A stretch of DNA of 64,000 bases. Source: a virus. A program made the translations under genes and the position numbers. Location of the stretch: positions 1 through 64,000 of the IMG/VR virus record IMGVR_UViG_3300042346_000266; one strand, given 5' to 3'. Under the pieces are notes generated by a model that saw only the letters and a list, made by a program, of their open reading frames with translations, had not been told where the DNA came from and searched no databases. Each line of letters starts with the position of its first letter. Position 1 is the stretch's first letter. This document shows, piece after piece, positions 3,505 through 46,397 of this stretch.

Positions 3505-3506
3505 TT

Positions 3507-3692: not shown

Positions 3693-3701
3693 AAAATAAA
3701 T

Positions 3702-5570: not shown

Positions 5571-5576
5571 TAATAA

Positions 5577-11800: not shown

Positions 11801-14312
11801 TATCACGTAATTCACTTTTTATTTCTTCTAGTCTTTTTAATTCTGGAACAATTAGATCTTTATCTTTACTTTGTACCTCTTTTTCAATATTAGTTTTTTC
11901 TAGCATTAAATTTACAGCCTTTTCTTTGCTCTCTGCTGAAAATTTAGATGGTATTTTTAATCCAGAACTTCTTATAGTAGATAATGTTTCAATTTCTTTT
12001 TCTTTGTCTTCTAAAGTAATATCCCCAACTTTAAACCTTTCTTCTATATTATTTTTAGCGGCTTTAAAAAAGTTATCTATTTGTAGTCTGTTTGAAACCG
12101 TAGTATCACCTAAAAAACTAGGCCTTGCCATGTCGAGCATAGATGCAGCTTTTATAGCGGAAGCTCTCAATTCAATTCCTGTTTGAGTAGCAACAGTTCC
12201 TGCAAAAGGAAAAACAGCACCTACAATACCTCCGGCTTTTGCATCTATAGCCATCTCGTTAAAGTTTACATATTTTCTGGCGTCCTGATCAAGTTGTAGC
12301 CCCATACTAACTTGGTCAATACCCTTTTGTAAACCTTCTGTTAAATACTCTCCTAATGCTGACGAGGCTATATTTTTGCCAGAACCAAGTATTGATTTAC
12401 CAAAGTTTTTAATTTCACCTCTAAATAGAGAGCCTAATACTTTATTTGCATCGTTGCCAAGACCTAATGCTTTACCCGTGTTTTTTAATACATTTAATTG
12501 AGAAGCATACTCAAGCCCAACGGAAATAGCTGAAAAAGCGGCGGCCTCTGCTCTATTAGCATATTTACCATTTCCAATTGCTTCTGCAATCTCTTTTTCA
12601 GATGGAGCTTTACCTAAGTCTTCCGATAACCCTTTCACAATGGTATCATAGTATTGAGACCCATATGTTTGAGTAAACATATTAGCCGTGCCTAATCCTA
12701 TTAACAATGGATTACCAGTAACTGTTCCAGTTGCCGTAATTGCTAGATTCGGTGTTTGTTCAGCGACTAGTTGTAGTACATCATCTAATTGTATACCGTT
12801 TTTTAAATCTGCTTCATTAAATAAACCTGTATACTCTTTTGTCTTTTCTATAGATTTAACTCTATCCCTAATTAAAGAGCTTGTTTTATCTAAATATTTT
12901 TTTACTCTATTTTTAGCTTCGCCGTATGTTTTAGGTACATCTTGTTCTTTAGGATCATATACATTTAATTCTTTAAGTTTCCATTCAGCGCTAAAGGATT
13001 TATCGATAGGAGCATTGTCAGGCTTGTCCTTAATGGTAGAATAAATATTATTAAGGGTTGCAATACTATTTTGATTCGATGATGCTAATGATTCCTTTAC
13101 TCCTAATATTATATTTTGTGTGCCTTTTACCGCCCCTTCTTCTATAATAGCTCCTTTTTTAGCAATTGTACCTATCATTCCAGGAACACCGCCAACTTTT
13201 TCTAATTCACCGCCTAATTCCTTTTGAATATCTATAGTACCCAAAATTACATCTTTACTTCTGCTGTATTCTTTATCCAGAATACTTGTTGCCTCCTCTT
13301 GAATGTTTGAAAAATTTTTATTTAACTCTTTAAAGCCGGAAGAATTTATTAGAAAGTTTGTTACTGTTTTTTCAAAATAATTTTTTAATTCTATATTTGC
13401 TTTATCTACAGACTCCTGAGTATTTAATGAATATTTTTTCTTTATTTCTGCTATTTTGCTATTTATTAATGGCCTTGCTTTAGCTAATGCATAATCTTGT
13501 TCAAATTTAAAGGATGGATCCTTAGATACAATATTTTTAACATTAAGTTCAATTGCTTTATTTAAGTCACTTTTTGTTTTAAATTTTTTAGGATCTATAT
13601 CTTGCGTCACCATTTCTATAGCCTCTTGTTTTGGAGCATTATAAAAAGAATTAGTAGACTTATCGTATTTTTTCTCAATATAGCTTGGCTTTGCTACCAT
13701 TTTAGAAACAAATAGTGCTCTTTCCTCTAGCGGATAATCTTTAAGAAACTCAAATTTACCAGAAGCATTCATAGCGTTCTTTGAGTCTTGAGCAAAAGAT
13801 ATTTGCTGGTCTCTTATAGGTGTTTGATCATAATATGTTAATTTGCCTTCTTCTGCTTTTTCTTTGCTAGGAAATAAATCTTTTACATAGTCGACTAGAT
13901 CGTCAAACATTGTAGGTTCCTCATAGCTTTTTGGCACCTGATAGCCTCTGGCATCAAGTTTGTATTCTATTCTTTCTGGCTTCTTTTTTGCTTTTGGTTC
14001 TTTTACTTCTGTAACCGCTTGCAGATTACCTAGAAAAGAACTTTTAATCTTATCTTCACCAAAAATATTATCTTGAGATACCGATGAAGGTTTTACCGAT
14101 TTGGATGCCGTACTTTTTGGTTTCCCTGCTGTTACAGCACCCTTTTTTACAGCAGGCCTCGGCTTTCCCGGCGGTTCAATAGTAGTTTCATCTTCTATTC
14201 TTTTAATACCAAATTTATTAATATATGTGTCAATATCGAGCCCTTTTTCTTGAGCTTTAGACAATACTTCTTCTTCTGAAAAATCAACTCCGTTATAATT
14301 GTATATAGGCAT
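5847..14312 (-). CDS. Giant internal virion / ejection protein (large polyvalent protein)
   Basis: 2,821 residues, the last late gene. The N-terminus (MPIYNYNGVDFSEEEVLSKA) is followed by a Lys/Pro/Ser linker and long helical regions. Glycine-rich hydrophobic stretches near residues 530-560 and 690-715 could insert in membranes. A zinc-peptidase motif HEFLH lies at residues 933-937. A segment at about 1,277-1,311 (KYKPESGVPLAAYINKYLPV) resembles sigma-70 region 2. A hydrophobic helix lies near 2,541-2,577, and the last 50 residues are very basic. In short-tailed phages such giant proteins are carried in the head and ejected with DNA. Its place next to two other internal-protein-like genes supports this. 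Enzymatic activity is inference. Confidence 0.8.
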   Translation of the reverse strand: MPIYNYNGVDFSEEEVLSKAQEKGLDIDTYINKFGIKRIEDETTIEPPGKPRPAVKKGAVTAGKPKSTASKSVKPSSVSQDNIFGEDKIKSSFLGNLQAVTEVKEPKAKKKPERIEYKLDARGYQVPKSYEEPTMFDDLVDYVKDLFPSKEKAEEGKLTYYDQTPIRDQQISFAQDSKNAMNASGKFEFLKDYPLEERALFVSKMVAKPSYIEKKYDKSTNSFYNAPKQEAIEMVTQDIDPKKFKTKSDLNKAIELNVKNIVSKDPSFKFEQDYALAKARPLINSKIAEIKKKYSLNTQESVDKANIELKNYFEKTVTNFLINSSGFKELNKNFSNIQEEATSILDKEYSRSKDVILGTIDIQKELGGELEKVGGVPGMIGTIAKKGAIIEEGAVKGTQNIILGVKESLASSNQNSIATLNNIYSTIKDKPDNAPIDKSFSAEWKLKELNVYDPKEQDVPKTYGEAKNRVKKYLDKTSSLIRDRVKSIEKTKEYTGLFNEADLKNGIQLDDVLQLVAEQTPNLAITATGTVTGNPLLIGLGTANMFTQTYGSQYYDTIVKGLSEDLGKAPSEKEIAEAIGNGKYANRAEAAAFSAISVGLEYASQLNVLKNTGKALGLGNDANKVLGSLFRGEIKNFGKSILGSGKNIASSALGEYLTEGLQKGIDQVSMGLQLDQDARKYVNFNEMAIDAKAGGIVGAVFPFAGTVATQTGIELRASAIKAASMLDMARPSFLGDTTVSNRLQIDNFFKAAKNNIEERFKVGDITLEDKEKEIETLSTIRSSGLKIPSKFSAESKEKAVNLMLEKTNIEKEVQSKDKDLIVPELKRLEEIKSELRDISLREAISTDVELTKKMAEAIGITETTDIPDLKDSKAVYDYIKENADLEKLGLTERDIEDYSDSAGIFIPLKNGKEALIVNQEVAEMTGVVTTGQHEFLHKVIFNAVKNNTELQKKIGTELYNHIEKTLGTEVLGKTEFQKRYIGYKKDFEKAESKASTAIKNAKNNLDNGAITEDEYNKVISVSEKYLAKEEGKYLEEVLPLLSESLNNGDIKYNETFFTKIGDIVRRLLQRYGFKNISFETGEDVFNFVKDYNKTFKKGTGNKAFERLTKEGIYKKPASEITEETTKQDIKSSKAQVESLTKELQDLEDEYDEGYGDMEEAEYTAKKANIERKIKTAEKLIEKAPVKEEVVKKEKTKEEQEDDEENALKKIIREEKASISSDKVQKIYNEKGRNGADEIIKLFRPITNRIVDKRRDAPDFDRELLTDEIETGVGGILDLITKYKPESGVPLAAYINKYLPVRAIATSRRILGKEFSKDVTEEVGIMATETADQNMTARTVEKPKYKNALESKVFEPETLETINNKIITVIRTLKSRIDAPITLNRTVTPLIAEIRDEIGKQADIDVKTVMGGKKDDQLKNWLLKNKKYILENMTTTWLMGKDGQGGMPIAIQKRIDGKWTNFPEWVGKKIDRESVSTDNAGRTAGHELVRRLPNVANNISDADFLDQIIGPDGNPIRGRKESLAKVIAEEAAFDIVLDDLANEGPIFDALKTNQERKGVEVLETLSAEIARQAERGNVKQSKKVAREVLTVLSKNEWDLNNEDYKKFVSGLSKEDSEYVTNVLQEKSIKQLRKYLKVIDLENKEFDFKNKIISALEDPVEKVLSKINRFKLVSKVASTSTSKLTDLKIEYKKNTYNFELKLDKDSRLKGVVINNVTTNPTINKDTGINDVIAETLKNDPNIKAYTDYLLENGGEIVANGNIKVPIEVFKDPKARALQEKAKVRISANADLVKKLNGGTNDAITFGGVGTFSYGDTKFEGILPDLEGDVNFEITTQRGSMDKDKNVNVYFIGFPKMASNWDQKSPVDIHDKPKKLLTIIRKASLLKRNRISARAVKAVLNAARPSYVAKPKKISVIDIDERLAKIKKKVSYKDKEGKVKKLTIPEFLKQQMQLELDGIIFDYTDVKAEVAKNKDILDGFDNTDPESSFGVTIEPTESGNAIQVLLQNVGVNIPANNINTLDDNTDQAKADWVTSKFSEGFNDFNIAGDKFKNSKGVKTILEDFDVKGEKQQKKLAFFNSLDGQFNKIISQNTGIGPMITYSDIVAKRRGASKGIFDVYVPPSAADFELLLYKFLGKGKRGEEQYKFFREALLDPYSNGTDLLDAARQSIKNDYKALLKEYPFVKGELEKLIPNSEFTYDQAIRVAIWDANGVEIPGLTKKDQRMLSNFVNNDPDLTAFKNGLLITGKQGKDWIKPEANWDSSTIISDLHGLTEGNGRKKFLEEFIANYEEIFGKWEQGRLVGPNMNKVEALYGTDTREAIEDVLYRMTTGKNRSHGKDKGTNAWSNWVNNSTGNIMFLNIRSASLQLLGAVNFLNLRDNNPVAAGKAFANQKQYWEDFATIWNSDKMKERRGGLKEDVAASEIANAAAGSKNKASAVISWLLKKGYAPTQLADSFAIASGGAPFYRNRINSYLKEGLTKEEAEDKAWTDFTKVSDETQQSGDPRDISQQQASPAGRLLLTFQNTAMQQSRIVKKSFLDLKNGRGNAKTHVSKIIYYLAIQNIMFSALQQGLFAVIFGDDEEEEKYKEKDKKSKPKTTEDRAIDVANGVLDSILRGTGYYGAIVATLKNMAVKYLDEKAKDYKADYAKVVLEGLNISPPIGSKARKVYSALQQTKFEKDLIEKRGWDVMQDGRVHLGPMYSVTGKLIEAGIGAPADRLVNKIENVSQAMNSQHDAWQRVALLLGWNSISLGIEEPAGDIKIREEAKAFRKEAGKIKAKETRQRTKDSIRALPLKERIAIKRAAALKRREDAKKRREEKKKRKMG

Positions 14313-18698: not shown

Positions 18699-21600
18699 TT
18701 AGATAGACCTTAATTGTGTTAAATTACCTCTTAAGTATTCATTATTCTCTATTTCACCTATTTTAGGAACTAATATATAACTAGACGGTGGGGTAGTCAG
18801 AAATATAACTTTACTCAACTCAAGTGTTGTTTGATTTATTATAGCTGTAACTAAAGCAGCCTTCCCGTCACTTATATTGTATACCACGTCACCAACTTGG
18901 ACACCTTCTAACACAAATCTAGCTAATGGATCTACTATTCTTCTAGGATTAGGTAAACTTTGAGCGGTCGCTTGCCCTTCCAACCTAATTCTTTGATTAT
19001 AAGCCCACGCCGTTTCTGCAGCTATAATAGGACCGATTGACAATGTACTCGAATTAAGCAAACCGCTAAAGAAAGGCCTATTGGTAATTAATGGCATTAT
19101 AGTTATATAATTTAAAACCGGTGGTAAAAATGGACTTGGTAAAGAACTTGGAGGTAAAGTGCTCCATGTTATAGGACCATCGTTTATAGTGTTATTATAT
19201 GTTCTATCCGAATTTCTAAATACTACACCGCCTCCATTTTGATTAACATAAGGAACCCATGGATTAGTAAGAGATTCATTAGAATAAAACTGTGTTATAT
19301 TCATTCCATTATTAGAAGAAGCCCATACGTTTCCAACTTCTCCAAGTCCAGAATCTGGCCTTGAGAATATAGTTATTTTAGTATTATTAGGAATAGCTAC
19401 TAATGTATTGCTGCTTATTGTTATAACTTTAGTAGTTGTATTAATATTTGTAATCTGTGTATTCTCAGCAAAATATGGATCGTCAACCCAATTAGCATAT
19501 CCAGCCGTTCCTATAAAAACCCCTGGGACTATTGGACCTAACATAGATTCCAAAACATCATCTGTTTGACTTGGTAAAGATACAAGTTCTATTTGATTAG
19601 ATGTTGAGTCCTGATCAGTAGCGGTTAACTGATAAACATAATCAAAACCAACTGTTCTGTCTGAATTTATTCTGCTATAAGGATAATCTGCACCTGGTGC
19701 AACTAAAGCTAATTCATATTTTGGCGGATTAACTTCATAAACATTAACATCTCTTGTTTGTACTTTGCCATAAAAATCAACGGTGCCACAATAAAGGTTA
19801 TTTGGAAAAGATCTAGTAAAAGTTAAAATTGTATCTTGACCTATAGCATAATTTGATAAAGAAGTTGCGTAACTGAGTCTCATTTGGTAAGCATTGAAAC
19901 TTACATCCCAGGTGAGGCTTAATACAGTAGCGGTGCGAGGTTGTCCTCCGGTATCAACATAGTTAACTGTATCCCCTACCACTGGTGCTGGGAATCTACC
20001 TCTAACAAAAACATTGAATCTAGCATCGTTTGCAAATTGAGGAACAGTTAGGTTAAACTTATATTGGTTAACATCCCTTCTATATGTATATTTTAAAACC
20101 AAACAATATTGACCCGGGGTAGAAGTAGTGAAAGAAGTTTGCTTATAAACTTCATTCAAACTATTAAGGGGTATTCTAGCAACTCTATAGTAAGTATTAG
20201 CTGGTATTGCTACAATAAAACTGGTTGATTCTAAAGAAACAATACAAGAATCATCTGTTATAACTACAGACTCAATTCTGCGCATTCCATTTACACCAAG
20301 ATCAATAAAGTCATCAACCTTTGGTCTTGGTTGATCAGATGGCAAATTAAATATAACTTGATTTCCGCCTACAGGGCTACTATTACTCGTTTTTAACCAA
20401 GTAAAATGATAAAGTGACATTTCTAAATCAACTACGGAGGACCATTCCGGGTTATTAATATTTATTGATGACGGAAACCCATTGTCATTTTTTACAGGTA
20501 CCCAAGTATCATTAATAGTTGGTTTATAATATAATATATATTCTAAATTACCTTGTCTTTGGGTGCTTATATATCCTGATTTATCTGTATTTGATGTTAA
20601 TAGATTACTTAGTGGATACAAATTTTTACCATAATTAGTTAAAACCCACTCTAATGAACCCTGCGTTAAGCCAATAGGCCTTGCTCCTCCGCCATTTACA
20701 ATACTAGGATTTACATAATTTTGGAAAAATCTATTTGGGGCTGGAGGGGTTGTTTGCGTTATATCTGGCAGCCTACTATTGAAACCATCGACCAAAGATA
20801 AATCTTCTGCCCCAATATGGTAAACAGCATAACCCTGACCTATTACATCGGAACCTGAACAAGCGGCATTATTATCCCACACAAATGGCTCTGGAGTTTC
20901 ATATACAAGTACGTCATTTACTCTTGGAGCAACAACAGTAACAGTAATATTAATTTCGTCCTGCAAAGAACCAAAATACGGCGTACCGCCTCCGTTTAAA
21001 GGCAATCCACCTGAAAGCGCGTCTTTTATTCTAACTGTTAAATCATAAGAACCTAAAGGTATAGACTGATTTATAAGAAATAAATCACCTGTTGAACTGT
21101 TTAATTGGAAATATGTCTCATTACCATCAGTCAACTCCCACTCCATACCTATACTATTCTCTAGAAAAGATCCATTACTAGCGTCTATATTCACTATCAA
21201 TTGTGATACAAAAGGTCCTGGCGTAACAGATATTTCAGTATTATAATTATCATTTAAGAATATAGGTTGGTTATTTCTAAGTCTACCCGTAACAGGAAAT
21301 GTAATAAATTCTCCAGCTTCCCATTGAAGTTTAATTAAGAAAGTATAACTACCTGACGTAGGAGCGTTATGATCAAATGTAAATGGTTCTTTTATAAACA
21401 GTCTTATTGTATTTGGATCTAATGGAGTTTCTAAACTAACTCCAAATTTAGAGGTTAAATCAATAGCTGGTGAAGAATTATCAAAAACAGACACTAATAT
21501 TGGATCGCCAATGAATGTTAAAGGTAATCCAGTATTGCCTAAAAGCGTAAATGTATTTGTTATCCATTTAGAATCTGGTTCTCCTTCTTCCTCGTTAGTT

Positions 21601-24600
21601 CCTTCTGGATCTTGATTTTCATAAAACACAAAATTTATATCACTAAAACCTATTGGACCGTCGTAACCAATAAGGACATCGTAATTTAGGTCTGATATCA
21701 ACCCAGTTGAAGAGGTTTCATAAAATAACTGTAAAGCAGACACGACAGGAGTTGTTTCGTATACACTTAAGAAAGGTACCATTTCTTTACCTATAACCCC
21801 AATTGGATTAACAACTGATACCCTACCTATGCTAGGTTTTGTTTGAAGTTGATAAAAATTTAATCCAGCAGTACCTTTTATATTATTAACATCATTTTCA
21901 AGAAAATTAAATTCTTCTGCAGAAGCTATAGCTGTAACTATATCTGCTTTTCTAGTTGGGAAATATTGTATATTTTCAGCTTTTGTTACAGTGTAATTTA
22001 GATATTGTATTTCTTCACTATTAACCACCCAGTTTGGTGGACTAAAAGTTATTATACCATGCGTTGGCCTAACTACTTTTATCTTAGTACCAACCGGTAT
22101 ATCAACAGTTAATGTGCTGGTTAATGTTATAACATTATCAACAACAGAATCCACTATTTCTGAATATGTCACCCCATCTATCTCATAAACTATCTCATCC
22201 TCTGCTAAAACCTCTTTATGAGGCTCCTGTAATGTTATAGTTGAGCTTCCGGAATCGGCTTCTATGCTATTAGCAACTTCAAAAGAATATATTTCATTAG
22301 AAACGACTACAGTGTTAGCGTACCAAGCATTGGGATTTTTAATAGTCGCGGGCGGAGCAGCAGGATTATCTATTGGTTCATTGGCTTGGTCTGATTGAAT
22401 TCCATTGCCAGGTATAACTGATTTTAATATACCACCAAAATAACCATTATCTTCTAATTTATATATTATTGAATTAGCCAGAGGATTAGTTTCTAGGTAA
22501 TCAATATCTGCGATAACATTTAGTATAGTTGCTGAATTTTCTACTTTACCGTATAACGCAACACTACTTCTATATAATTTTTGGTCAGGCCCAACCTCGA
22601 CTAAGTCTCTTGGAACTTTGTTTATATTGTCATTTATTAAAACTATATGACTAGTCTTACCAACTTCTCCAACAGGGAAATCCGTCATATTTATTCCATT
22701 CTTGGTTGAAGCTACACCATCAATGTCATAAGTAACTTGTGATCCATATGTTTGATCATTTGGGTAACCATCAAGCATTCCTGGTAAATAAACGTTGTAA
22801 TATTCTTGTTGTTGTTGTTTTACTACTATTTTATAAGAATACCAACCTATCTCATTTATACTATAAGCAAATTTTGAATCAACTTCATTTACAGGATTTG
22901 ATAAATATATATCGTTTACTCTACCGCTTGTTCTGATAAAATATGATGGAGGCGTTGGGTTTGGATCTAAAGGCTTTCGAGGTATAACTTTTACATAATC
23001 GGTATAAGCTCCGCGCATATAATCGCCTACCGCAGGAACTTTTTGACCGTCTGATGAATCAATAGTAAATTGATAAGAATTATCTGTTATAGTAGTGCTA
23101 TCCGGTGTTACTATAAAACCTATAGTTGATGTTGGTTCTGCATATAAGCCAGGCGTACCTGCTTGTATATCTCTAACAGATTCTATAGGATTGTTAACTA
23201 TAGTTACTATAGCATTTCCAAGCCAATTTTTTACAGATTGTATGTTTGTTGAATCTTCATTTTCATATGGAGCATATAAAGTTGATCCACCAAATAAAGT
23301 TTCACCAACTCTTACGGTTTGAGACCCTATAGTTGACAATATAACAGGTGATTGTCTACCAAACTTATCTGCTAATATAAAACCTACTTGGTAATTTCTA
23401 TTTTGTTTTACAGTATGATTAGGGTATTCTATAAAGTTGGTAAATACTCCAGATTTAGGTAATACTGTAGTGTTATAGTTTATAGCTGGTGGAGCTGAAT
23501 ATGTATTATAAAAATTACCATATATAACTCTATTACCTGCTACTTCTTGTGCTAACGCTCTAACAGGAATATTATCATATACTCTAGTTATTTGGTCATC
23601 TGGTAACGTTTTAAATGGTTTTTGAGATTGATAGCTATAAGAATATATATTATTATTTGGAGATGACTGCCTAATATCAGTATAATCAATAGTGTCTAAA
23701 ACTTTTACAGATAACGCGTCGGATTCTTTGTACAGTATATCTACTTTAGTTATCTTATAAGAATCCCTAATATTATTACCTATATCAGGCAGAGGTATTA
23801 ATAATTCTATATTATTAACATTATTTTCCATCCAGTTTATAACTGTACTTTTATATGCAGATGATTCATCTCCATTTACAAAATATCCTTTTTGTTTTGG
23901 AATATATGCTATTTGTGTAAATGGCGCTATTAATGAATATTCATTATCATCAAACTTAAACCTATAACTAAATCTAACATACTTATCCTCTAAAAAAGAA
24001 GGATCGCCAGCCCAATCTGGATCATCGGACTTATTAGTCATTGTTGATGTTAAAAATGTAACCGTATCTCCGATGCTTATAGTATTGTCAAATGTATATA
24101 ATTTAAATGTATTTTCATCAACATTTGTTACAATTGTATATCCGTTAGGAGGCATTGTATTTGCAACTAATGTCATTCCAACTTCTAGTGAACCGATAGC
24201 ATTATCGAAAGAATAAACAAAAGTTTCTGTGTCTATGTCTGATATAACAACAGTAGCTTTCTTTAACATAGAAATTGGATCAATTGGAGCATATTTAGCC
24301 ACAGATATTTGAGTTTCTGTGGTATAATATAAAGGATCAGCTAAAGCATTGTTTATGTTTATTTTACGAGGCTGATTCCTATTGTCTGTCCAAAATAGTA
24401 GCCCTTCTATTAGGTTTACACCTATCACTAAGTTTGTGGTAGAAAAATTTAAAAACGTTCCTGATACTAGCGTTTTATATTGAGGGTTAGTATTGAAATC
24501 ATACATTGTTATTTTCATTACCCATCCGCCTGTAGGAGGAGTAATATTATCACACAAAGTTATATTTTCTGGGGATAAATCTGTATAGTTTGTTAAAAAT

Positions 24601-24842
24601 TGATATATTCTATTGTTCTCATTATCCATGAAAATACCAATACAAGTTAAACTAGCGTCAACTGTACTTAATTGATTTAGCTTAATATTTCCTAATATAT
24701 TTTGTAATACACCAATATTATCACTTTCGGATTTGCCAACAGATATATTTAATGCGTCTCTATATTGACCATTTGGAATAAGTCTATCATCTAAATCCTT
24801 ATTCATTTTTGATTGTAAAAAACTATTCTTTACTTCAGCCAT
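18699..24842 (-). CDS. Very large tail protein (nozzle / muzzle-like)
   Basis: 2,047 residues, beginning with KMNKDLDDRLIPNGQYRDAL, a signature I associate with the large tail nozzle ('muzzle') proteins of crAss-like and related Bacteroidetes phages. The first 600 residues look like a beta-propeller (IGIFMDNENNRIYQFL, NLIEGLLFWTDNRNQPRKI). The middle contains cadherin-like/Ig-like strands, and the rest is beta-rich with many Asn/Thr. Probably the distal tail tube and host-contact part. It ends four bases before the next tail gene begins. Confidence 0.72.
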   Translation of the reverse strand: MAEVKNSFLQSKMNKDLDDRLIPNGQYRDALNISVGKSESDNIGVLQNILGNIKLNQLSTVDASLTCIGIFMDNENNRIYQFLTNYTDLSPENITLCDNITPPTGGWVMKITMYDFNTNPQYKTLVSGTFLNFSTTNLVIGVNLIEGLLFWTDNRNQPRKININNALADPLYYTTETQISVAKYAPIDPISMLKKATVVISDIDTETFVYSFDNAIGSLEVGMTLVANTMPPNGYTIVTNVDENTFKLYTFDNTISIGDTVTFLTSTMTNKSDDPDWAGDPSFLEDKYVRFSYRFKFDDNEYSLIAPFTQIAYIPKQKGYFVNGDESSAYKSTVINWMENNVNNIELLIPLPDIGNNIRDSYKITKVDILYKESDALSVKVLDTIDYTDIRQSSPNNNIYSYSYQSQKPFKTLPDDQITRVYDNIPVRALAQEVAGNRVIYGNFYNTYSAPPAINYNTTVLPKSGVFTNFIEYPNHTVKQNRNYQVGFILADKFGRQSPVILSTIGSQTVRVGETLFGGSTLYAPYENEDSTNIQSVKNWLGNAIVTIVNNPIESVRDIQAGTPGLYAEPTSTIGFIVTPDSTTITDNSYQFTIDSSDGQKVPAVGDYMRGAYTDYVKVIPRKPLDPNPTPPSYFIRTSGRVNDIYLSNPVNEVDSKFAYSINEIGWYSYKIVVKQQQQEYYNVYLPGMLDGYPNDQTYGSQVTYDIDGVASTKNGINMTDFPVGEVGKTSHIVLINDNINKVPRDLVEVGPDQKLYRSSVALYGKVENSATILNVIADIDYLETNPLANSIIYKLEDNGYFGGILKSVIPGNGIQSDQANEPIDNPAAPPATIKNPNAWYANTVVVSNEIYSFEVANSIEADSGSSTITLQEPHKEVLAEDEIVYEIDGVTYSEIVDSVVDNVITLTSTLTVDIPVGTKIKVVRPTHGIITFSPPNWVVNSEEIQYLNYTVTKAENIQYFPTRKADIVTAIASAEEFNFLENDVNNIKGTAGLNFYQLQTKPSIGRVSVVNPIGVIGKEMVPFLSVYETTPVVSALQLFYETSSTGLISDLNYDVLIGYDGPIGFSDINFVFYENQDPEGTNEEEGEPDSKWITNTFTLLGNTGLPLTFIGDPILVSVFDNSSPAIDLTSKFGVSLETPLDPNTIRLFIKEPFTFDHNAPTSGSYTFLIKLQWEAGEFITFPVTGRLRNNQPIFLNDNYNTEISVTPGPFVSQLIVNIDASNGSFLENSIGMEWELTDGNETYFQLNSSTGDLFLINQSIPLGSYDLTVRIKDALSGGLPLNGGGTPYFGSLQDEINITVTVVAPRVNDVLVYETPEPFVWDNNAACSGSDVIGQGYAVYHIGAEDLSLVDGFNSRLPDITQTTPPAPNRFFQNYVNPSIVNGGGARPIGLTQGSLEWVLTNYGKNLYPLSNLLTSNTDKSGYISTQRQGNLEYILYYKPTINDTWVPVKNDNGFPSSININNPEWSSVVDLEMSLYHFTWLKTSNSSPVGGNQVIFNLPSDQPRPKVDDFIDLGVNGMRRIESVVITDDSCIVSLESTSFIVAIPANTYYRVARIPLNSLNEVYKQTSFTTSTPGQYCLVLKYTYRRDVNQYKFNLTVPQFANDARFNVFVRGRFPAPVVGDTVNYVDTGGQPRTATVLSLTWDVSFNAYQMRLSYATSLSNYAIGQDTILTFTRSFPNNLYCGTVDFYGKVQTRDVNVYEVNPPKYELALVAPGADYPYSRINSDRTVGFDYVYQLTATDQDSTSNQIELVSLPSQTDDVLESMLGPIVPGVFIGTAGYANWVDDPYFAENTQITNINTTTKVITISSNTLVAIPNNTKITIFSRPDSGLGEVGNVWASSNNGMNITQFYSNESLTNPWVPYVNQNGGGVVFRNSDRTYNNTINDGPITWSTLPPSSLPSPFLPPVLNYITIMPLITNRPFFSGLLNSSTLSIGPIIAAETAWAYNQRIRLEGQATAQSLPNPRRIVDPLARFVLEGVQVGDVVYNISDGKAALVTAIINQTTLELSKVIFLTTPPSSYILVPKIGEIENNEYLRGNLTQLRSI

Positions 24843-37909: not shown

Positions 37910-38368
37910 TTAAAAGCTATTATTGTTTCTTGTTTTATCGTTATTTACATGTTCTATCGCTACTAGTCCAACAATATCAGAATATCTTTTACTTGTTGTC
38001 ATCGTATTCCTATAACTTGTTGGTATATCCTCTTTGCCAAGCATTATACGATACATTTTGCTTATTAGTTGTTTGCACTTAAATGAAACTTTATATATAT
38101 TATATTTTTGAGTCGTGCGGTTTCTATCTCTCCATACCACAATCCAACCTTCTTTTAATAACTTGTTCCAGCGTTTATTATCCCAACTATATGCGTATGT
38201 ACCTATCTCATAGTCATGTTTAGAAAAAAATTCTAAACAATCAAAATAAATAAGGAGTTCTAGATCAGAATCAGTTAAATTATTATTTCTGCAAGCCCAT
38301 CTTCTAATTATTCTATAATGCTTTAATAAACCAATATCTTTTATATCTGAAGCCTCTAACCTAATCAT
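37910..38368 (-). CDS. Winged-helix-like phage protein
   Basis: 152 residues. WACRNNNLTDSDLELLIYFD, WDNKRWNKLLKEGWIVVWRD and KYNIYKVSFKCKQLI follow the helix-turn-helix plus wing layout of MarR-like transcription regulators, and I recall similar proteins in the late region of related phages. Could regulate late genes or act in assembly. It overlaps the GroES gene by four bases. Confidence 0.55.
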   Translation of the reverse strand: MIRLEASDIKDIGLLKHYRIIRRWACRNNNLTDSDLELLIYFDCLEFFSKHDYEIGTYAYSWDNKRWNKLLKEGWIVVWRDRNRTTQKYNIYKVSFKCKQLISKMYRIMLGKEDIPTSYRNTMTTSKRYSDIVGLVAIEHVNNDKTRNNNSF

Positions 38369-38625
38369 AATACAACCACTACATCTCCTAATCTTATGAC
38401 ATGATATGTTTCTTTATCTATATCTATTTTATGCCCGGCATGCCTATCATAAAATATTCTATCGCCTTCTTTAACTCCAACTACTTCTTCTCCTACTGAT
38501 AAAACCTCAGCTTCAATATATCTAATATCTTCTCTTTGGTTCTCAGCTAAAAGTAAACCACCTTTAGTTTTTGTAGTACCTTCTTTTTTCTTACTTATAA
38601 CCAAGCATTTACCTACTGCTTTCAT
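38365..38625 (-). CDS. groES: Co-chaperonin GroES-like
   Basis: 86 residues, a single GroES barrel: start KAVGKCLVISKKKEGTTKTK, mobile loop GGLLLAENQ with a hydrophobic triplet that would contact GroEL, AEVLSVGEEVVGVKEGDRIF, and a C-terminal strand RLGDVVVVL. Slightly shorter than bacterial GroES (about 95). It starts within the last codons of GroEL (four-base overlap), so the two are made together. Order GroEL then GroES is the reverse of the bacterial groES-groEL operon. Confidence 0.85.
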   Translation of the reverse strand: MKAVGKCLVISKKKEGTTKTKGGLLLAENQREDIRYIEAEVLSVGEEVVGVKEGDRIFYDRHAGHKIDIDKETYHVIRLGDVVVVL

Positions 38626-40169
38626 TGTATTCTTAAATTATTGATTACACAGTCAGTCGATAATATAGTTGTAGCTACAGACGCGGCATTTTTTAAAGCA
38701 CTCTTAGTCACGAGTAATGGGTCAATAATTCCTTCTCTTATCATGTCTACTGTCTCGCCTGTTATAACATTTAATCCGTACCCAATACCAGTTACTATCT
38801 TTTCAGACATAACTTCTATACCGGCGTTACTTAATATTGTATTAAATGGAGACCTAATGGAATCTAATAATATCTCTTCGCCAACAGAAAATGCATCCAC
38901 ATTATATGAAGCATTTAATAAAGCTATGCCTCCTCCTGGAACAATACCTTCTTTAATAGCCGCCTTTGTTGCACAGATAGCATCCTCGATTCTATCTGCT
39001 TTTTCTTTTAATTCTATTTCTGAATTAGCACCAACTTTGACTACAGATATTTTTGCCGTTAATCTAGCTAGTCTTTTTTCTAGTTTTATAATAGTAGCGC
39101 TATTATTATTTTCTAATAATGATTTTTTAATATCATTAATTATATCTAAAACTTCTTCGCTTGGTTCACCTACGTGAAGTATAGTTTCTTCATGATTAGT
39201 TATGCTTTTAAAACAATTACCAAGCATAGAAGGATCTATTAAATCTAAATCGTCTCCAAGATCTTCATTTATTAGAGTAGCACCGGTTAATAAAGCAAGG
39301 TCATCAAATATTTCTTTCCTATTAATACCGTAGGTTGGTGCATTAATAACATTAACCTTTATATTCCCTTTAGATTTATTCATTGCTAATGTGGATAGAA
39401 CAATTTGTTCCATATCAGCTACAATTAATAAAGACCTATTATTTTTTATAACATACTCTAATACTTTTTGTATTTGGCGTATATTCTCAATAGGTGATTC
39501 AACTAATAATACTAAAGGATTATCTAGTTCTGCGGTTTTATTTTTATGGTTTGTTATAAAATGTGAATTTGTTAAACCCATTGAACACTGAACTCCTTCC
39601 ACTAGTTGTAAACTACACTCCGCATCAGATGAAGTTTCCATCATAACAATACCTGTATTTCCAACTGCTCTAAAAGCATCTCCTACTAATTTGCCTAATT
39701 CAGGATCATTATTTGTAGATATAGTAGCGATGTGATCTAACATATTATCGTCAACTAATACCGACAAATCTTCAAGATACTTAATAACATTATCAACCGC
39801 TTTATTGATACCTTCTTTAATTCTTCTAGTATCTGGGTTTTCTATTTTATAGGCATTTTTTAATATATTGTAAGCTAATACCGTTGCCGTTGTTGTACCA
39901 TCACCTGCTTCTCTAACAGTCTTGCGTGCAGCCTCTTTTAATAATGTAGCTCCCATGTTCTCTACCGGATCCAACAATATAATTGAATCAGCTACTGTCA
40001 CCCCGTCTTTAGTAATAACCGGTTTACCAGTAGAGTCTTCTAGTAAAACACATTTACCACTTGCCCCAAGAGTAGAACTAACAGCTTTTGATAATTTTTC
40101 TACGCCGGCGAATACTTTATCGCTCGCTTCTTTACCAAAACTTAAATTTTTGACTATAGCGTCTGACAT
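38622..40169 (-). CDS. groEL: Chaperonin GroEL
   Basis: 515 residues, versus about 548 in E. coli. The ATP site is complete: KDGVT (54-58), GDGTTTATVL (89-98), the EDAICATKAAIKEG block with the Asp equivalent of E. coli Asp398, and GIVPGGGIALLNA. The apical domain is divergent. The C-terminus ends NNLRIQ without the Gly-Gly-Met tail. It would form the ring that folds phage proteins, probably capsid or the giant tail proteins. Chaperonin genes are rare in phages, which usually borrow the host ring and bring only a GroES substitute. Confidence 0.93.
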   Translation of the reverse strand: MSDAIVKNLSFGKEASDKVFAGVEKLSKAVSSTLGASGKCVLLEDSTGKPVITKDGVTVADSIILLDPVENMGATLLKEAARKTVREAGDGTTTATVLAYNILKNAYKIENPDTRRIKEGINKAVDNVIKYLEDLSVLVDDNMLDHIATISTNNDPELGKLVGDAFRAVGNTGIVMMETSSDAECSLQLVEGVQCSMGLTNSHFITNHKNKTAELDNPLVLLVESPIENIRQIQKVLEYVIKNNRSLLIVADMEQIVLSTLAMNKSKGNIKVNVINAPTYGINRKEIFDDLALLTGATLINEDLGDDLDLIDPSMLGNCFKSITNHEETILHVGEPSEEVLDIINDIKKSLLENNNSATIIKLEKRLARLTAKISVVKVGANSEIELKEKADRIEDAICATKAAIKEGIVPGGGIALLNASYNVDAFSVGEEILLDSIRSPFNTILSNAGIEVMSEKIVTGIGYGLNVITGETVDMIREGIIDPLLVTKSALKNAASVATTILSTDCVINNLRIQ

Positions 40170-40362: not shown

Positions 40363-40815
40363 TTAAAATAAACGTATTAATGTATAATGAAAACTAATGC
40401 CACCTGATGGTTGCTTATTTATAGCGTCGTAGCCGGCATAAAATCCTATACCAAATCTTTTTTTGTTTTTAGATTCTAATTTAGCTAGTTTAACTTCTTG
40501 CTCTTCTTGTTTCTTTAAAGAACCTAATAATCCAGCTTGCAAATCTAAATTATGATTAACAAAAGCACTAGATTCTTCTCCTAAAGCAACAGCTAAATCT
40601 TGTATTTGTTTGTATTTATTTTCAAACTCTCTCATCTCTGCATTATATCTATCTTGGCAGTCTTTAACTTGCTTTGTAAGTTCTTTATGCTGGATAGCTA
40701 TGCCATACAAAGCTTTAACCCTTTCTGGAGAATTTAAATCTTTAGTTTGGCTGTACAGTGTCAAGCACCCTACGCATAACATCATAACTAGTATCTCTAA
40801 CTTTAATAGTTTCAT
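40363..40815 (-). CDS. Outer-membrane spanin-like protein
   Basis: 150 residues. A signal-like N-terminus (MKLLKLEILVMMLCVGCLTL) contains a Cys that could be a lipobox (weak consensus) or a cleavage site near YSQ. A long coiled coil follows (KELTKQVKDCQDRYNAEM). The last 35 residues look like outer-membrane beta strands ending in aromatic Phe. Its start overlaps the end of the inner spanin-like gene by 74 bases in another frame, the classic Rz/Rz1 arrangement. Would fuse inner and outer membranes at lysis. Confidence 0.6.
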   Translation of the reverse strand: MKLLKLEILVMMLCVGCLTLYSQTKDLNSPERVKALYGIAIQHKELTKQVKDCQDRYNAEMREFENKYKQIQDLAVALGEESSAFVNHNLDLQAGLLGSLKKQEEQEVKLAKLESKNKKRFGIGFYAGYDAINKQPSGGISFHYTLIRLF

Positions 40816-41110
40816 ATTTAATTCTTTTAGGTTTAAATTTTGTTAATCTTTTTATTTCTTTAACTTTTTCTTGCGTAGAGCTATCGTGAGCTTTAACATG
40901 CTCAACTAATGCTTCTTTGTTTTGTTCAACTTCTATCTTGGTATCAACTAATTCATTTTTTGTTCTCTCTATTTTAACAGCTCTTCTAGCTTTAGAAAAC
41001 CCATTAATAGACATAACAATAACAATTATAATAATTAAAACAATTAATCCTATTAAAATATAGTCTTTTATTTTATTTGGAATTGCATTAAGTTTCTGTA
41101 ATATATTCAT
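40742..41110 (-). CDS. Inner-membrane spanin-like protein
   Basis: 122 residues. One transmembrane segment (YILIGLIVLIIIIVIVMSI) near the N-terminus is followed by a periplasmic coiled coil (KIERTKNELVDTKIEVEQNK) and a basic C-terminus. Topology and place, directly after the lysozyme gene and overlapping the next coiled-coil envelope protein, are those of an i-spanin (Rz). Confidence 0.65.
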   Translation of the reverse strand: MNILQKLNAIPNKIKDYILIGLIVLIIIIVIVMSINGFSKARRAVKIERTKNELVDTKIEVEQNKEALVEHVKAHDSSTQEKVKEIKRLTKFKPKRIKYETIKVRDTSYDVMRRVLDTVQPN

Positions 41111-41112
41111 AA

Positions 41113-41583
41113 TTATTTGAAGTATAAGTTAGCTTCTCTTTGTCTTCTCTTAGTTAATCCATTATTAATCTTACCATTAACTTTGTTCCATTTAGCAAAC
41201 TCTCTAGCGATAGTTGGATCATTTGGGTTGGCATTTACTTTACGAAGTAATGTACTGTCCCCTAAACCTTCAGGGATATTATCCGCGTCAATATCTGAAC
41301 CAACGTTGTATGCAAAAGATACAAGGGCATTAAATTGATTTTGATTAATAGTAGATGTAACAAGTTTATCCACATCCTTAGCAAACATGTTAACTGTTTG
41401 TTTCAACATCCAATAAGCTGTTGCTTGTGTAATTGGTTTGTCTTTCATTGTAACTTTTGCCCCACTAGGATAGAATGTATTACCATATCCTATAGTTGGT
41501 ACTCCTGCAGGACATAAATAAGGGGATAATCTTAATCCTTCATCCTTGGCTATCATTTGGTATAATTCTTCATTCGGACTCAT
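41113..41583 (-). CDS. T4-type lysozyme (endolysin), E-C-T triad
   Basis: 156 residues of the glycoside hydrolase 24 family. The catalytic stretch KDEGLRLSPYLCPAGVPTIG has Glu15, Cys24 and Thr30 at the spacing of T4 lysozyme Glu11-Asp20-Thr26; Cys at the Asp position is known in phage P1 Lyz-type enzymes. NQFNALVSFAYNVG and the C-terminal KRRQREANLY block complete the fold. No N-terminal signal, so it needs a holin; the gene upstream may provide it. Cuts peptidoglycan glycan strands at lysis. Confidence 0.9.
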   Translation of the reverse strand: MSPNEELYQMIAKDEGLRLSPYLCPAGVPTIGYGNTFYPSGAKVTMKDKPITQATAYWMLKQTVNMFAKDVDKLVTSTINQNQFNALVSFAYNVGSDIDADNIPEGLGDSTLLRKVNANPNDPTIAREFAKWNKVNGKINNGLTKRRQREANLYFK

Positions 41584-42086
41584 TTTGTTGCTTTTTTATG
41601 TTTATCAAAATCATCTTTTAATTTTGCGTATAACCCTTTTAATTCTTCATGATCTTTTGCTAGAGCATTATATTTATCTGTAAGTTCTCTATGTAGTTTT
41701 TCCCAATTTTGAGATTGTTCAACTTCCTTAGCATAAGCTAGTTGAATCATGTTAAATTGGTTTTGAATTTCTCCTAATTGAGATCTGAGGGTATCTATTT
41801 GATTCCTAAAATATTCTTTTTCGGCTTTGAATTCGGCAACTATAATTTCTTTGTCCAACTTTAAAGCGTCTTTATCTGAATTAGCTTGTAGTAATAAGCT
41901 CTCATATAATTCTCTAACCTTAATAGCATAATCAACTTCTGCTGATTCTATTTCTACATCCCCTTTTTTTAATTCTTGTTCTTTTTGTTTCTTACCGCCT
42001 AAGAACCAACCTACTATTCCTGTTATAGATGCTCCGACTGTCGATAATAGCATCCAGTTAGTATTAAGCCATTCAGATAAACCCAT
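41580..42086 (-). CDS. Holin-like membrane protein with long coiled coil
   Basis: 168 residues. A single N-terminal transmembrane segment (WMLLSTVGASITGIVGWFLG) is followed by a Lys stretch and a 120-residue coiled coil. It overlaps the lysozyme gene by four bases (ATGA), so holin is the natural guess; the long cytoplasmic or periplasmic coiled coil is unusual for one and also resembles an i-spanin. Confidence 0.55.
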   Translation of the reverse strand: MGLSEWLNTNWMLLSTVGASITGIVGWFLGGKKQKEQELKKGDVEIESAEVDYAIKVRELYESLLLQANSDKDALKLDKEIIVAEFKAEKEYFRNQIDTLRSQLGEIQNQFNMIQLAYAKEVEQSQNWEKLHRELTDKYNALAKDHEELKGLYAKLKDDFDKHKKATK

Positions 42087-43573
42087 TATAATTTTATTTT
42101 TTTAGTTATAAATCTATTTGTTTTTGTTTGTACAATTATAATATACAGCCCTGGGGATAAATCAGAAATATCATAATTATTTGATATTAAATATCCATTA
42201 AAACTATATATTTTAACTTCCTCAATATCTTCGCCTTCTACTTGAATTTTTTTTCCAACAACATTTAGCCCTCCAACGGTATAAACATGTTGCAGATCGT
42301 TAAAACCCTCTATCGTCCATGTGTTTATATTGGATGTTTGTATAGAATATAATTTATTACTTATTAACGGATCTGGCAGATTAAGATATAACTTATAACT
42401 TCCAACCGGTAATCCTAAAGTAGATAAATTAGTAGTTATATTATAGTTTGTAGAATTGCAGTTTTTAATATTATTATCAATTAAAAAAGAATAATTTATA
42501 TTTGTACTTGTGTTTTTACAAACTAAGAAAGCTTTTCTATCTTTAAATAAATTTGCATAACCATAATTACCAATGTTTATAGTAAGCACATTATTCGTTA
42601 TATTTGAAAAATTCAATCTAAAATTATAACCTAAATTTCTTTGCATTATATTAAAACAACCATTAATCTGCCAATTTGATATAACTGTAGGAAAATAGTC
42701 TTTGTTTATTAAACTCCAATTAAACCTATCCATTTCAACCATAGCGTTGCTACAGTCAGTTCTTGGAGTATTAACCATATTAGTTTCCCCTATAACTGGT
42801 AAATTTACTGTCTGCATTTGCCAATAAGATACTTGTTCTTGTGTTGGACTAGCATTAGAAGTACTAACACTAAACGTGCCTGAATCGCCCCAAGTCCCCA
42901 AAAAAGAATCATTATAAAACCCTATTCTTCCAACAAAAGTATTTCCATACATTTTTTGTTTAGCTTCTACATATCTTACCTGTATAAGTATATCGCTATT
43001 AAATCTCAGTAACATTTCATCAACAACCTGTTTCCTATTATTCCATTGCGTTGTACTTACTGGATATGTGTTTCCAAATTCAGTAGAGCCTGTATAATAC
43101 CATTCACCCCATCTACCAATAAATCCAGCTTGTACACAAACTATAACGTCTTTATTTCTATTAATAACAGGAGCTAATTGTCTTATATGAGATAGTATCT
43201 GAGTTTTTGTTGGTTGATATACGGTAGCTGAATTAGATGTATATGAAAACCTAACTGTTACTTTAAGCCCCGCATTTCTGATCCTATTGAAATCGGTTTG
43301 CATATTATTTAAGTAAGTAGAAGTAATTGGAATACCAGTAATAAAATCTCTTAAAAAAAATTGTCTTTGTATTACTGTAATATTTTCATTATTTCTATAA
43401 CTAGTTAATGTGGATTGTGATAGTAAATTATATCCTCCAGAAGAGCCAGTAGAAGTATATTTATAAAACCCTTTTTCTGGATTGGCAATAGCAACATTAT
43501 TTGCTTGATATATTATTGTTTGTGACTTAGATATTATTGTTGTAAACAATATTAAAAATAATAATATTTTTTT
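42086..43573 (-). CDS. Secreted DUF4874/DUF4832-like protein with T9SS sorting domain
   Basis: 496 residues. An N-terminal signal peptide (MKKILLFLILFTTIISKSQ) is followed by ANPEKGFYKY at residues 31-40, the opening signature of DUF4874, and GFYNDSFLGTWGDSGTF, typical of DUF4832; the two form a TIM-barrel-like glycosidase-type pair. The last 70 residues (VKIYSFNGYLISNNYDISDL, then SPGLYIIIVQTKTNRFITKK) resemble a type A sorting domain of the Bacteroidetes type IX secretion system. I infer the cell exports it to its surface, or it is a virion-bound enzyme acquired from the host. It lies between tail-fibre and lysis genes. Domain names are from memory. Confidence 0.75.
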   Translation of the reverse strand, partial: KKILLFLILFTTIISKSQTIIYQANNVAIANPEKGFYKYTSTGSSGGYNLLSQSTLTSYRNNENITVIQRQFFLRDFITGIPITSTYLNNMQTDFNRIRNAGLKVTVRFSYTSNSATVYQPTKTQILSHIRQLAPVINRNKDVIVCVQAGFIGRWGEWYYTGSTEFGNTYPVSTTQWNNRKQVVDEMLLRFNSDILIQVRYVEAKQKMYGNTFVGRIGFYNDSFLGTWGDSGTFSVSTSNASPTQEQVSYWQMQTVNLPVIGETNMVNTPRTDCSNAMVEMDRFNWSLINKDYFPTVISNWQINGCFNIMQRNLGYNFRLNFSNITNNVLTINIGNYGYANLFKDRKAFLVCKNTSTNINYSFLIDNNIKNCNSTNYNITTNLSTLGLPVGSYKLYLNLPDPLISNKLYSIQTSNINTWTIEGFNDLQHVYTVGGLNVVGKKIQVEGEDIEEVKIYSFNGYLISNNYDISDLSPGLYIIIVQTKTNRFITKKIKL

Positions 43574-43905
43574 CATAATTTTAAATTTGATTGTCTATAA
43601 CTAAAGTTGGTTATTCCTAAATCTATAATTTTTTGATTACATTCATCTCTCAATCTATCTCTTTCATCAATAACATCCTGAGGAATAGGCACGCCATCAA
43701 TACTTAGCTTCTCAATATGTTTTCTTAAAAGGTCAGAAATAAGCTCTGTATAATACAAATCAATTTGCAATGCTTGATTAGTTAGAGTAACAGTATCAAC
43801 AGTTTCTTCTCTTTCAATAGTTTCATAAGAAAATCCTTCTGGTATTTGATTTATATCAGTAGTTTCTATTATGCTACCTCCATGTCTGTAAATATATATT
43901 GTCAT
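43573..43905 (-). CDS. Small protein after the tail fibre
   Basis: 110 residues: an N-terminal beta part (TIYIYRHGGSIIETTDINQI) and a helical C-terminal part (LISDLLRKHIEKLSIDG). Directly follows the tail-fibre gene and shares one base with the secreted-protein gene. Small proteins here are often fibre chaperones or tail assembly factors; not recognised. Confidence 0.5.
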   Translation of the reverse strand: MTIYIYRHGGSIIETTDINQIPEGFSYETIEREETVDTVTLTNQALQIDLYYTELISDLLRKHIEKLSIDGVPIPQDVIDERDRLRDECNQKIIDLGITNFSYRQSNLKL

Positions 43906-46397
43906 TATCTTGGATTTGTAAAGATTTCTTCGTACATAAAATAATCTGTTTGCATTGCTCTAGCAGTACTACCTGTGTTTTTAATAATTGCATTTGCAAT
44001 AAACATAGGTGTTGTTGTAAGTGGAATATTTGTAGTATGTGTGGCTCTCAATACATTGTCTATGTAAAATTCTACTGAAGAAGCAGCTGCATTTATGTTT
44101 ATTCTTAATTTATACCATTGCCCTGCTGTTACAGCAATTGAAGTAACAGTTGTTGTATTTGTTGTTCCTGCTCTTGTTATGCATTTAAAATTAGGTGAAG
44201 CATTTGCGCTTAAATATACACCACCCTCATCATAAACAATAGCTATGTTATTTAAAATATTTGAATAATTAGAGCCAGTAGCATATCCAAAAAATGTATA
44301 GAATCTTTCAGCTAGAGTAGATAATGTAGTAATATTTACATAAGTTTCCAAAGTAATTGCTCCTGTTCCTATAAACAAAGCTGCTCCTCCATATACCCAC
44401 CCAGCTTGGCCTGTATTATTAGCAGAAGTTAATGATTCTACAACCCCTTGCTGATTAGTTCTATTTGTAATAGTACCTGTACCTCTTGTAGTTCCTTGAC
44501 CATTACCAAAGGTATTAATAACATCATTTGTAGCAGCAGTAACGTTTGCCGCTAAACTACCCATAAACTCATTAAAATAATAAACTCCTTGAATAGTTTG
44601 AAAAGTTCTTAAATTATTTTGCTTATTATTAAATGTACTCCAATCAGCAGATGATAAAGCACCTCTGTTTAAAGCACTAGCAGTTGGTAAATTAAATGTA
44701 TGTGTTGATGCACTAGAGCTAATAGCAAAATCAGTTCCTGATGCACCTGTTGCAAAATTCTGCACTTGTGCTGTAAGTCCATTTAAGGCAGTAAGTCCTG
44801 TTGAAAATGTAGTTATAACTTGGCAAAGATTATTATCCTCTGTATGTAATGTAATAGTTCTTCCGCTATTATTAACCCATATTCTAACAGCCAGTCTATC
44901 TGTTGCTAGTAATGTTGTTTGTGGAACTGCTAAAGCACTTACATATAAATCAGTAGCAGTACCATTAGTTATCCCCTCAGGATTTGCTGAACTACTTGCT
45001 ATTAAGGATAGAGTTACTCCATCCCACTTATACAATTCAATATAAAATGATGGCGAACCTCCACCTGATGAAGCACTAAAATATGTTTCAAAATTCCAGT
45101 TTCCTGCTGGTATTTCTAATAAATTTGGTACTCCAGCATCTGTAATAAACGATTGAATATAACCATTTGCATTTATTGTAAAATCTGTACCTGCACCTAG
45201 AATTGGCGTTCTGTCCATTTCTCTAAAAGCAACACCGCCAAAAGTGCCTTGTGAAACTGAACCATTAAGATAGAAAGATAGAGAAGCACCACCACCACTT
45301 GAAGCTGGAAAGTTAGCCAAACTACCATCGCCGCGAACATATTGCGATACCGTGCCTGCCCCTGTAACCGCTATATCTCCGCTTGATGTAATTGGACTAT
45401 TTGTTACTGTAAAAGCACTTGGCATTGTTAATCCGACTGAAGTAACTGTACCACCGCCACTTGGAATATCATCTAATGTCGCTAAAGTATATGTGCCATC
45501 TAATTTATATGGAATATAAAATATAGAAGGAGCACTTGAAGGTGGTTGAGGTATAAAATAATCAGGATGAAAAATAAAACTAATATCTTGTAAAATAGGG
45601 CTTGAATTAAGATAAAACCCTACTCCATAATTAGTTGTGTCATTTACAACGTTTAAATTTAACGGGTTTGCAGGATCTAAGTTAAAATCTCCTAAAGTTA
45701 AAGCACCGTTGGCAAGAGCAGAAGTTGTACCGCCTTGAGCAACAAAACTTAATCCATCACTATACAATTCAGATGTACTGCCTATAGGATTAGTAACTTT
45801 AAAACTTTGACCAAGTAAATTTTCGCTATTTATAATAATACCGTTTGTAGTTTCATTACCTTGATCTGTTACCTGTTGAAGATTAGGAGTTGTCCCTACC
45901 CCTCCAGAACTTGCCCAAGGGGTCATATCATAGTATATATCTTTATATATATTACCATTCCCTCCAATATACTCTAGACTTAACTCATAAAAATTCGGGT
46001 TTGCAGTAACAACATAATTAGTTATTTTATAATGCCCGAAAGAATTAGGTTGGTTTTGCTCAGCAAGTAATATCTCACTGTCTATTAAATAATCTAAGAA
46101 TACGGTTATATTGCTACCACTTGCATCTAATATTGACACAATGAGTTTATCTATAGACGAAAAAAGTCTACCATCTCCACCTCCGTCCTCAAAAGCAATT
46201 GTTTTTGCTACGTTTGGCAAAATAGTAAACTTAAATGTTAATTGGCCACTTATAGATATTCTAGCATTGACATTCAAATAATCAGCAATACTTTGTGCAG
46301 TATAATTTACAGTTCTATTCGTAGCATACTTAGTACCTACGAATATATCTGAATCTGTTATTGGTGAACTATTAAAATACGAATTAGCTATTGCCAT
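43905..46397 (-). CDS. Tail fibre with C-terminal LamG-like domain
   Basis: 830 residues. The start (FNSSPITDSDIFVGTKYATN) resembles the next fibre gene. The middle contains the repeated fibre pattern TSVGLTMPSAFTVTNSPITS...VRGDGSLANFP and SRASA-like beta strands. Residues about 640-815 form a concanavalin/LamG-like sandwich (GQWYKLRININAAASSVEFY). Probably the receptor-binding fibre, recognising a surface glycan. Ends with MFEEIFTNPR-like tail. Confidence 0.75.
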   Translation of the reverse strand: MAIANSYFNSSPITDSDIFVGTKYATNRTVNYTAQSIADYLNVNARISISGQLTFKFTILPNVAKTIAFEDGGGDGRLFSSIDKLIVSILDASGSNITVFLDYLIDSEILLAEQNQPNSFGHYKITNYVVTANPNFYELSLEYIGGNGNIYKDIYYDMTPWASSGGVGTTPNLQQVTDQGNETTNGIIINSENLLGQSFKVTNPIGSTSELYSDGLSFVAQGGTTSALANGALTLGDFNLDPANPLNLNVVNDTTNYGVGFYLNSSPILQDISFIFHPDYFIPQPPSSAPSIFYIPYKLDGTYTLATLDDIPSGGGTVTSVGLTMPSAFTVTNSPITSSGDIAVTGAGTVSQYVRGDGSLANFPASSGGGASLSFYLNGSVSQGTFGGVAFREMDRTPILGAGTDFTINANGYIQSFITDAGVPNLLEIPAGNWNFETYFSASSGGGSPSFYIELYKWDGVTLSLIASSSANPEGITNGTATDLYVSALAVPQTTLLATDRLAVRIWVNNSGRTITLHTEDNNLCQVITTFSTGLTALNGLTAQVQNFATGASGTDFAISSSASTHTFNLPTASALNRGALSSADWSTFNNKQNNLRTFQTIQGVYYFNEFMGSLAANVTAATNDVINTFGNGQGTTRGTGTITNRTNQQGVVESLTSANNTGQAGWVYGGAALFIGTGAITLETYVNITTLSTLAERFYTFFGYATGSNYSNILNNIAIVYDEGGVYLSANASPNFKCITRAGTTNTTTVTSIAVTAGQWYKLRININAAASSVEFYIDNVLRATHTTNIPLTTTPMFIANAIIKNTGSTARAMQTDYFMYEEIFTNPR

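Follow-up and report, generated by a model that had tools for sequence, protein, structure and literature searches.

Why should a phage encode, immediately ahead of its lysis genes, an enzyme that appears to carry two signals for export from the host cell? The question is raised by a stretch of 64,000 nucleotides of a 65.9-kb IMG/VR virus record, referred to here as the window. From its reading frame, its translation and Pfam matches, a protein of 496 amino acids comprises a predicted signal peptide, a glycoside-hydrolase-like body of DUF4874 and DUF4832, and a C-terminal domain (CTD) of the type A class that directs proteins to the type IX secretion system (T9SS). The gene runs over positions 42086–43576 of the minus strand, stop codon included, while the plus strand over this interval is full of stops. 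The original prediction had found the reading frame itself, but its strand is corrected here to minus, and its end at 43573 lay three bases short of the start codon.

The gene was also predicted to be a late gene, and it does lie within the late gene block. Its start overlaps (ATGA) a small conserved gene of 110 amino acids (43573–43905), upstream of which is the gene for a tail or host-recognition-like protein of 830 amino acids (43905–46397) with a C-terminal SO2946-like domain (E 3.2e-11). On the other side its stop overlaps (TAATG) the start of a holin-like candidate with a membrane segment and a coiled coil (41580–42086). This is followed by an endolysin of the phage lysozyme type (41113–41583; Pfam 4.8e-38, PHROG 8.7e-49), an Rz-like spanin (40742–41110; PHROG 5.1e-5) and, overlapping the latter, a lipoprotein-like gene that is a candidate outer spanin from its sequence (40363–40815), all on the minus strand. 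The order of the cassette is thus tail-type protein, small gene, enzyme, holin-like gene, endolysin and spanin genes, and the overlaps with both neighbours make the enzyme gene part of one operon. Relatives of the terminase belong to phages of Flavobacterium, Cellulophaga, Tenacibaculum and Maribacter, so that the host is likely to be a member of the Flavobacteriia, with a T9SS that we presume it to possess.

Other features can be seen in the window. The 830-residue protein, in the region 43573–46397, is a mosaic when compared with its homologues, stretches of 67–89% identity lying next to unrelated ones, and homologues of the small gene share a conserved C-terminus of 67 amino acids behind variable N-termini. 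A GroEL-like chaperonin of the phage (38622–40169) is flanked by a small gene where GroES would be expected (the pair spanning 38365–40169), and the related phages MW202828 and elemo also have annotated genes for GroEL and GroES. Two very large late proteins of 2821 and 2047 amino acids are encoded at 5847–14312 and 18699–24842, the second matching a virion structural family.

Fold of the enzyme body

The body of the protein had been described as DUF4874/DUF4832-like, and the Pfam matches bear this out at E-values far beyond chance. DUF4874 (residues 32–203; 42968–43483, minus strand; E 2.7e-40) provides the first part of a TIM barrel, and DUF4832 (residues 217–416; 42329–42928, minus strand; E 7.5e-37) its end together with a β-sandwich. 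In the full-length model (pLDDT 87) the barrel and sandwich are followed by a small, separate CTD. Foldseek TM-scores for the whole model were modest and the barrel was therefore compared using VIA-align, giving Z scores of 14–15 with GH5 cellulases and GH14 β-amylases.

Many TIM-barrel hydrolases have their catalytic acids after strands β4 and β7. Glu158 (codon 43103–43105, minus strand; motif GRWGEWYY) lies in the loop after β4 and is a candidate acid/base, while Glu264 (codon 42785–42787, minus strand; motif IGET) at the end of β7 is a candidate second catalytic acid; these placements are taken from the strand assignment and alignment, not from a superposed active site. Both glutamates are invariant in 22 aligned sequences. 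From sequence and model taken together, it is very likely that the body is a glycoside hydrolase. PHROGs contains no family for the 496-residue protein, nor has it a relative among 50,697 annotated phage records.

The export signals

The N-terminal 18 residues (MKKILLFLILFTTIISKS, followed by QT; 43523–43576, minus strand) form a predicted Sec signal peptide. It has a charged start and a hydrophobic core (hydropathy 2.99 over 11 residues) and ends in KS before QT, giving the Ser–Gln cut of the Bacteroidota type, as expected from the Q-rule of the signal peptidase of this phylum (PMC5837995). Ser–Gln is aligned at the predicted cut in seven of the eight phage proteins of the main clade described below. 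The signal peptide of the original prediction is thus well founded.

The sorting domain required more care. It comprises residues 435–496 (42089–42274, minus strand), and profile searches of the kind that had been proposed as a check do find it, but the window copy falls below both cut-offs. With Por_Secre_tail it scores 19.1 bits as a whole protein and 25.9 bits as the C-terminal 61 residues, against a cut-off of 27, and with TIGR04183 16.5 against 23; the N-terminal YPNP part found in many type A CTDs is missing. Its relatives are stronger. Por_Secre_tail matches all eight C-termini of the main phage clade (best E 4e-7), and the Pfam cut-off is reached by the CTD in five other phage genomes (in L006 only counting frame neighbours). 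L036 scores 38.1 bits, above the Pfam cut-off, and L009 exceeds the TIGR04183 cut-off with 27.8 bits. A profile of the phage CTDs matches that of host type A CTDs with E 2.5e-7. In six phage records searched in full, that of the window and five others, Por_Secre_tail matches no protein but the DUF4874 one.

Searches against solved structures depended on the profile used. With phage CTDs alone the best match is the CTD of NucA (E 0.0092), with chance matches behind it. When host sequences are included in a full-length profile, each of the top eight matches covers the CTD, and six of the eight are solved T9SS CTDs; the phage-only full-length profile found only unrelated structures. A host-type CTD has no relative in the 50,697 annotated phage records.

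Modelled alone (pLDDT 90), the CTD has six strands and a one-residue bridge, where a type A domain is a seven-stranded Ig-like sandwich. Its best matches in the PDB, by both aligners, are the CTDs of RemA and RemZ, T9SS substrates seen in the translocon of F. johnsoniae (PMC10994853); the CTD of RgpB is matched too. RemA-CTD superposes with a VIA Z of 8.2 (1.9 Å over 62 residues, 32% identity). For an Ig-like fold this Z is moderate, and it is the 32% identity across the entire domain, together with the concordant sequence profiles, that carries the case. Gly461, after strand β3 in the motif Lβ3β4, is invariant among the phage CTDs, and each complete one has at least one lysine in its final strand, with a slight shift in register; a glycine after β3 and a C-terminal lysine are both known to matter in CTDs (PMC11285876, PMC10994853). 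Among the phage copies dN/dS is 0.07–0.20 for the body and 0.2–0.8 for the CTD, and CTD sequences evolve fast in general (PMC11285876). The phage CTD is thus fast-evolving yet keeps its key residues, where decay would be expected of a tail that served no purpose. Given the relatives that match or pass the cut-offs and the match to the host profile, we accept the sorting domain as real on its sequence and modelled fold, as originally proposed, though the window copy alone is sub-threshold.

Copies in other phages

How widespread is this enzyme among phages? Relatives are found in nine further viral contigs, one of them a jumbo phage of 430 kb. Seven contigs (the window, L003, L005, L006, L009, L036 and L037) have a tail-type protein, the small gene and the enzyme in that order, the small gene immediately preceding the enzyme in each, and their backbones differ. 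Homologues of the 830-residue protein stand in identical gene order in L003, L005, L006 and L009, and the holin-like candidate is kept next to lysis genes in L005, L006 and L037. The window copy of the enzyme is nearest to that of the jumbo phage (80%), while L006, which has the backbone most similar to the window phage, has a copy only 73% identical; thus the gene moves between phages. In the tree, eight phage proteins form one clade with support of 99–100%. L036, L005b (a second copy in L005) and L037 form a second, separate group beside the host sequence L019, and L038 (a second copy in the jumbo phage) stands alone, from which the family appears to have been taken up by phages more than once.

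The copies are of two kinds. All nine copies with a signal peptide also have the CTD (with L007 cut by its contig end), and both complete copies without a signal peptide lack the CTD as well; such joint presence and absence would be expected of two tags that act in a single route. The copy in L037, in the standard slot of the cassette, has no signal peptide and ends at the contig end. The two complete untagged copies are L005b and L038. At least two of the nine further contigs hold an untagged copy beside tail-type genes, and we infer that these copies are virion parts. That of the jumbo phage follows a protein with the N-terminal domain of the major tropism determinant. L005b has an N-terminal segment in common with neighbouring proteins, which is possibly an attachment segment. 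A search for it returned nothing in the phage records and only L003 among viral contigs, so that calling it a virion anchor is guesswork. In both L005 (9894–12512) and L003 (6260–7059) several otherwise unlike proteins begin with this common segment (IGFSNEENLLWEISKQLDR-like). Several genes that look by eye like glycosyltransferases, judged on sequence only, lie near the second enzyme copy of the jumbo phage (L038:8855–11082).

Substrate, role and alternative readings

Clear relatives of the gene exist in host genomes, and their surroundings point to a substrate. Among 150 Flavobacterium genomes DUF4874 is present in 19 and PelF in 16, and 15 have both; that is, 15 of the 16 with PelF have DUF4874, and 15 of 19 the reverse (Fisher p 3.7e-16, a value that overstates independence as the genomes are related). 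In nine genomes the two genes share a contig, at a distance of about 10 kb, and in the operon neighbouring the DUF4874 gene PelF, a GH114 hydrolase and DUF2194 are adjacent. PelF is present in 11 of 12 genomes with host relatives, and SprA in all six tested. Those host copies that stand closest to the phage clade are not in the Pel-like locus itself, although their genomes do contain one. We call the locus Pel-like, not proven Pel, because the PelG model found nothing in six host genomes. Two contigs titled Bifidobacterium breve and Sphingobacterium thalpophilum (L011 and L013) are Flavobacterium-like, with the gene order of L012 and L024, and probably come from mislabelled or contaminated MAGs. 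In L024 a large Sortilin/BNR-repeat protein with a T9SS CTD of its own (3159–5684) adjoins the host enzyme copy.

DUF4832 genes occur in the pel loci of streptococci and clostridia (PMC7112168), and SIR_1591, a DUF4832 protein of Streptococcus intermedius, disperses Pel aggregates (PMC12345266). Compared by description, it resembles the phage protein in having a TIM barrel and a DUF4832 β-sandwich, in being an active glycoside hydrolase and in its place in a pel operon; it differs in coming from a Gram-positive species and having a transmembrane helix, with no CTD reported (PMC12345266). We regard a Pel-type substrate for the phage enzyme as an evenly balanced matter, and it may have another. 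The original prediction did not foresee this probable activity, glycoside hydrolysis with a link to exopolysaccharide of the Pel type.

We propose that the phage would make the enzyme late in infection, in a host cell that is still living. Sec would export it, and signal peptidase I would cut between serine and glutamine, exposing the glutamine. The CTD would dock on PorV in the SprA translocon, and the proton motive force, still present before the holin acts, would drive release to the cell surface or the medium. The enzyme would then cut exopolysaccharide of the host population around the infected cell, most likely a Pel-type polymer of GalN/GalNAc, and the loosened matrix would let the progeny spread. 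The export half of this scheme draws on established T9SS knowledge and the anatomy of the protein, and the hydrolysis half on fold and genomic association. Export by the host T9SS is strongly to be expected from that anatomy and the rules of the system. It is probable, on sequence and model, that the exported hydrolase acts on polysaccharide of the host population; that the benefit is opening of the matrix rather than another is suggested tentatively.

The main rival keeps the route and changes the benefit, the enzyme stripping or altering glycans on the surface of the infected cell and on its debris, so blocking superinfection or re-adsorption of progeny as a receptor-destroying activity. Type A substrates can remain attached to surface LPS (PMC10994853), and with the cassette behind a tail-type protein that has a lectin-like C-terminal domain, enzyme and recognition protein could have a common ligand. 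However, expression beside the lysis genes is late for exclusion, and the Pel link points toward matrix polysaccharide, so that we think this explanation rather unlikely. Phage tail depolymerases are polysaccharide-cleaving parts of the virion that are encoded with the tail genes. The window gene, too, probably encodes a polysaccharide-cleaving enzyme, lies directly behind tail-type genes, an arrangement common to the seven contigs, and could specify a virion-associated depolymerase whose tags are leftovers of a host enzyme. In keeping with this, the untagged sister copies of L005 and the jumbo phage have tail-type or anchor-sharing genes as neighbours, and L037 has in the same slot a copy lacking a signal peptide. 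Yet virion depolymerases and tailspikes have no export signal; L005b and L038 lack both tags, while the window copy has both. The signal peptide and key CTD residues are kept in eight diverged phage proteins (body dS ~0.5–1.7), a Sec-exported protein is unlikely to enter virion assembly in the cytoplasm, and it is the copies of virion-type appearance that have lost both tags. The earlier suggestion that a captured host enzyme is retained in the virion thus suits the untagged sister genes and is a poor fit to the window copy, with its signal peptide; for the tagged protein we judge it improbable.

Two further explanations carry still less weight. One would have the protein act as a decoy. The best matches of the CTD are to those of the RemA type, but the body is more constrained than the CTD and keeps its candidate catalytic residues, for which a decoy would have no need, making this very improbable. 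Since the gene has clear host relatives it might be a contaminant or the product of a chimeric contig; against this its frame overlaps phage genes on both sides, seven phage contigs have the same order and the phage clade is supported at 99–100%, so that the idea can scarcely be credited.

Returning to secretion through the T9SS, it is possible, if speculative, that some Bacteroidota phages deliver one polysaccharide-cleaving family by two routes that a single genome encodes, with a copy on or with the tail for entry and a T9SS copy secreted before lysis that opens the matrix for the progeny.

Use of the T9SS by a phage was at first taken to be new, but it had been predicted before. Cryophage is reported to encode three proteins with T9SS tags, for which secretion by the host was predicted (Bellas et al. 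2020; PMC7468147), and crAss-BACON phages carry T9SS sorting domains too (PMC6949934). The Cryophage enzymes, which include an endoglucanase and a glycoside hydrolase 39, likewise have type A sorting domains, but they are of other families and vary between variants of one phage (PMC7468147), whereas the enzyme described here is one family in many phages, in a conserved cassette and sometimes with untagged second copies. RemA, RemZ and NucA of F. johnsoniae share the seven-stranded sandwich CTD and are the best structural matches of the phage domain, but are host proteins with experimentally demonstrated transport (PMC10994853). Functionally uncharacterized phage proteins of Porphyromonas gingivalis similarly obey the Q-rule, and are thus adapted to the Bacteroidota signal peptidase (PMC10367356); a term search of that paper finds no mention of a T9SS domain. 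As far as our literature search reached, with subscription papers mostly outside it, we found no earlier mention of the tagged enzyme family in phages, the cassette across unlike phages, the link to a Pel-like locus in Flavobacterium or the tagged and untagged pairs.

Phage depolymerases are usually regarded as components of the virion. The family suggests that Bacteroidota phages also send a depolymerase-type enzyme out through the type IX system of the host, and it offers a likely activity and substrate for two domains of unknown function, DUF4874 and DUF4832. Genomes with both tagged and untagged copies provide natural pairs for testing the T9SS route. BFVD also contains viral proteins whose annotation is a secretion C-terminal sorting domain, along with one DUF4832 phage protein.
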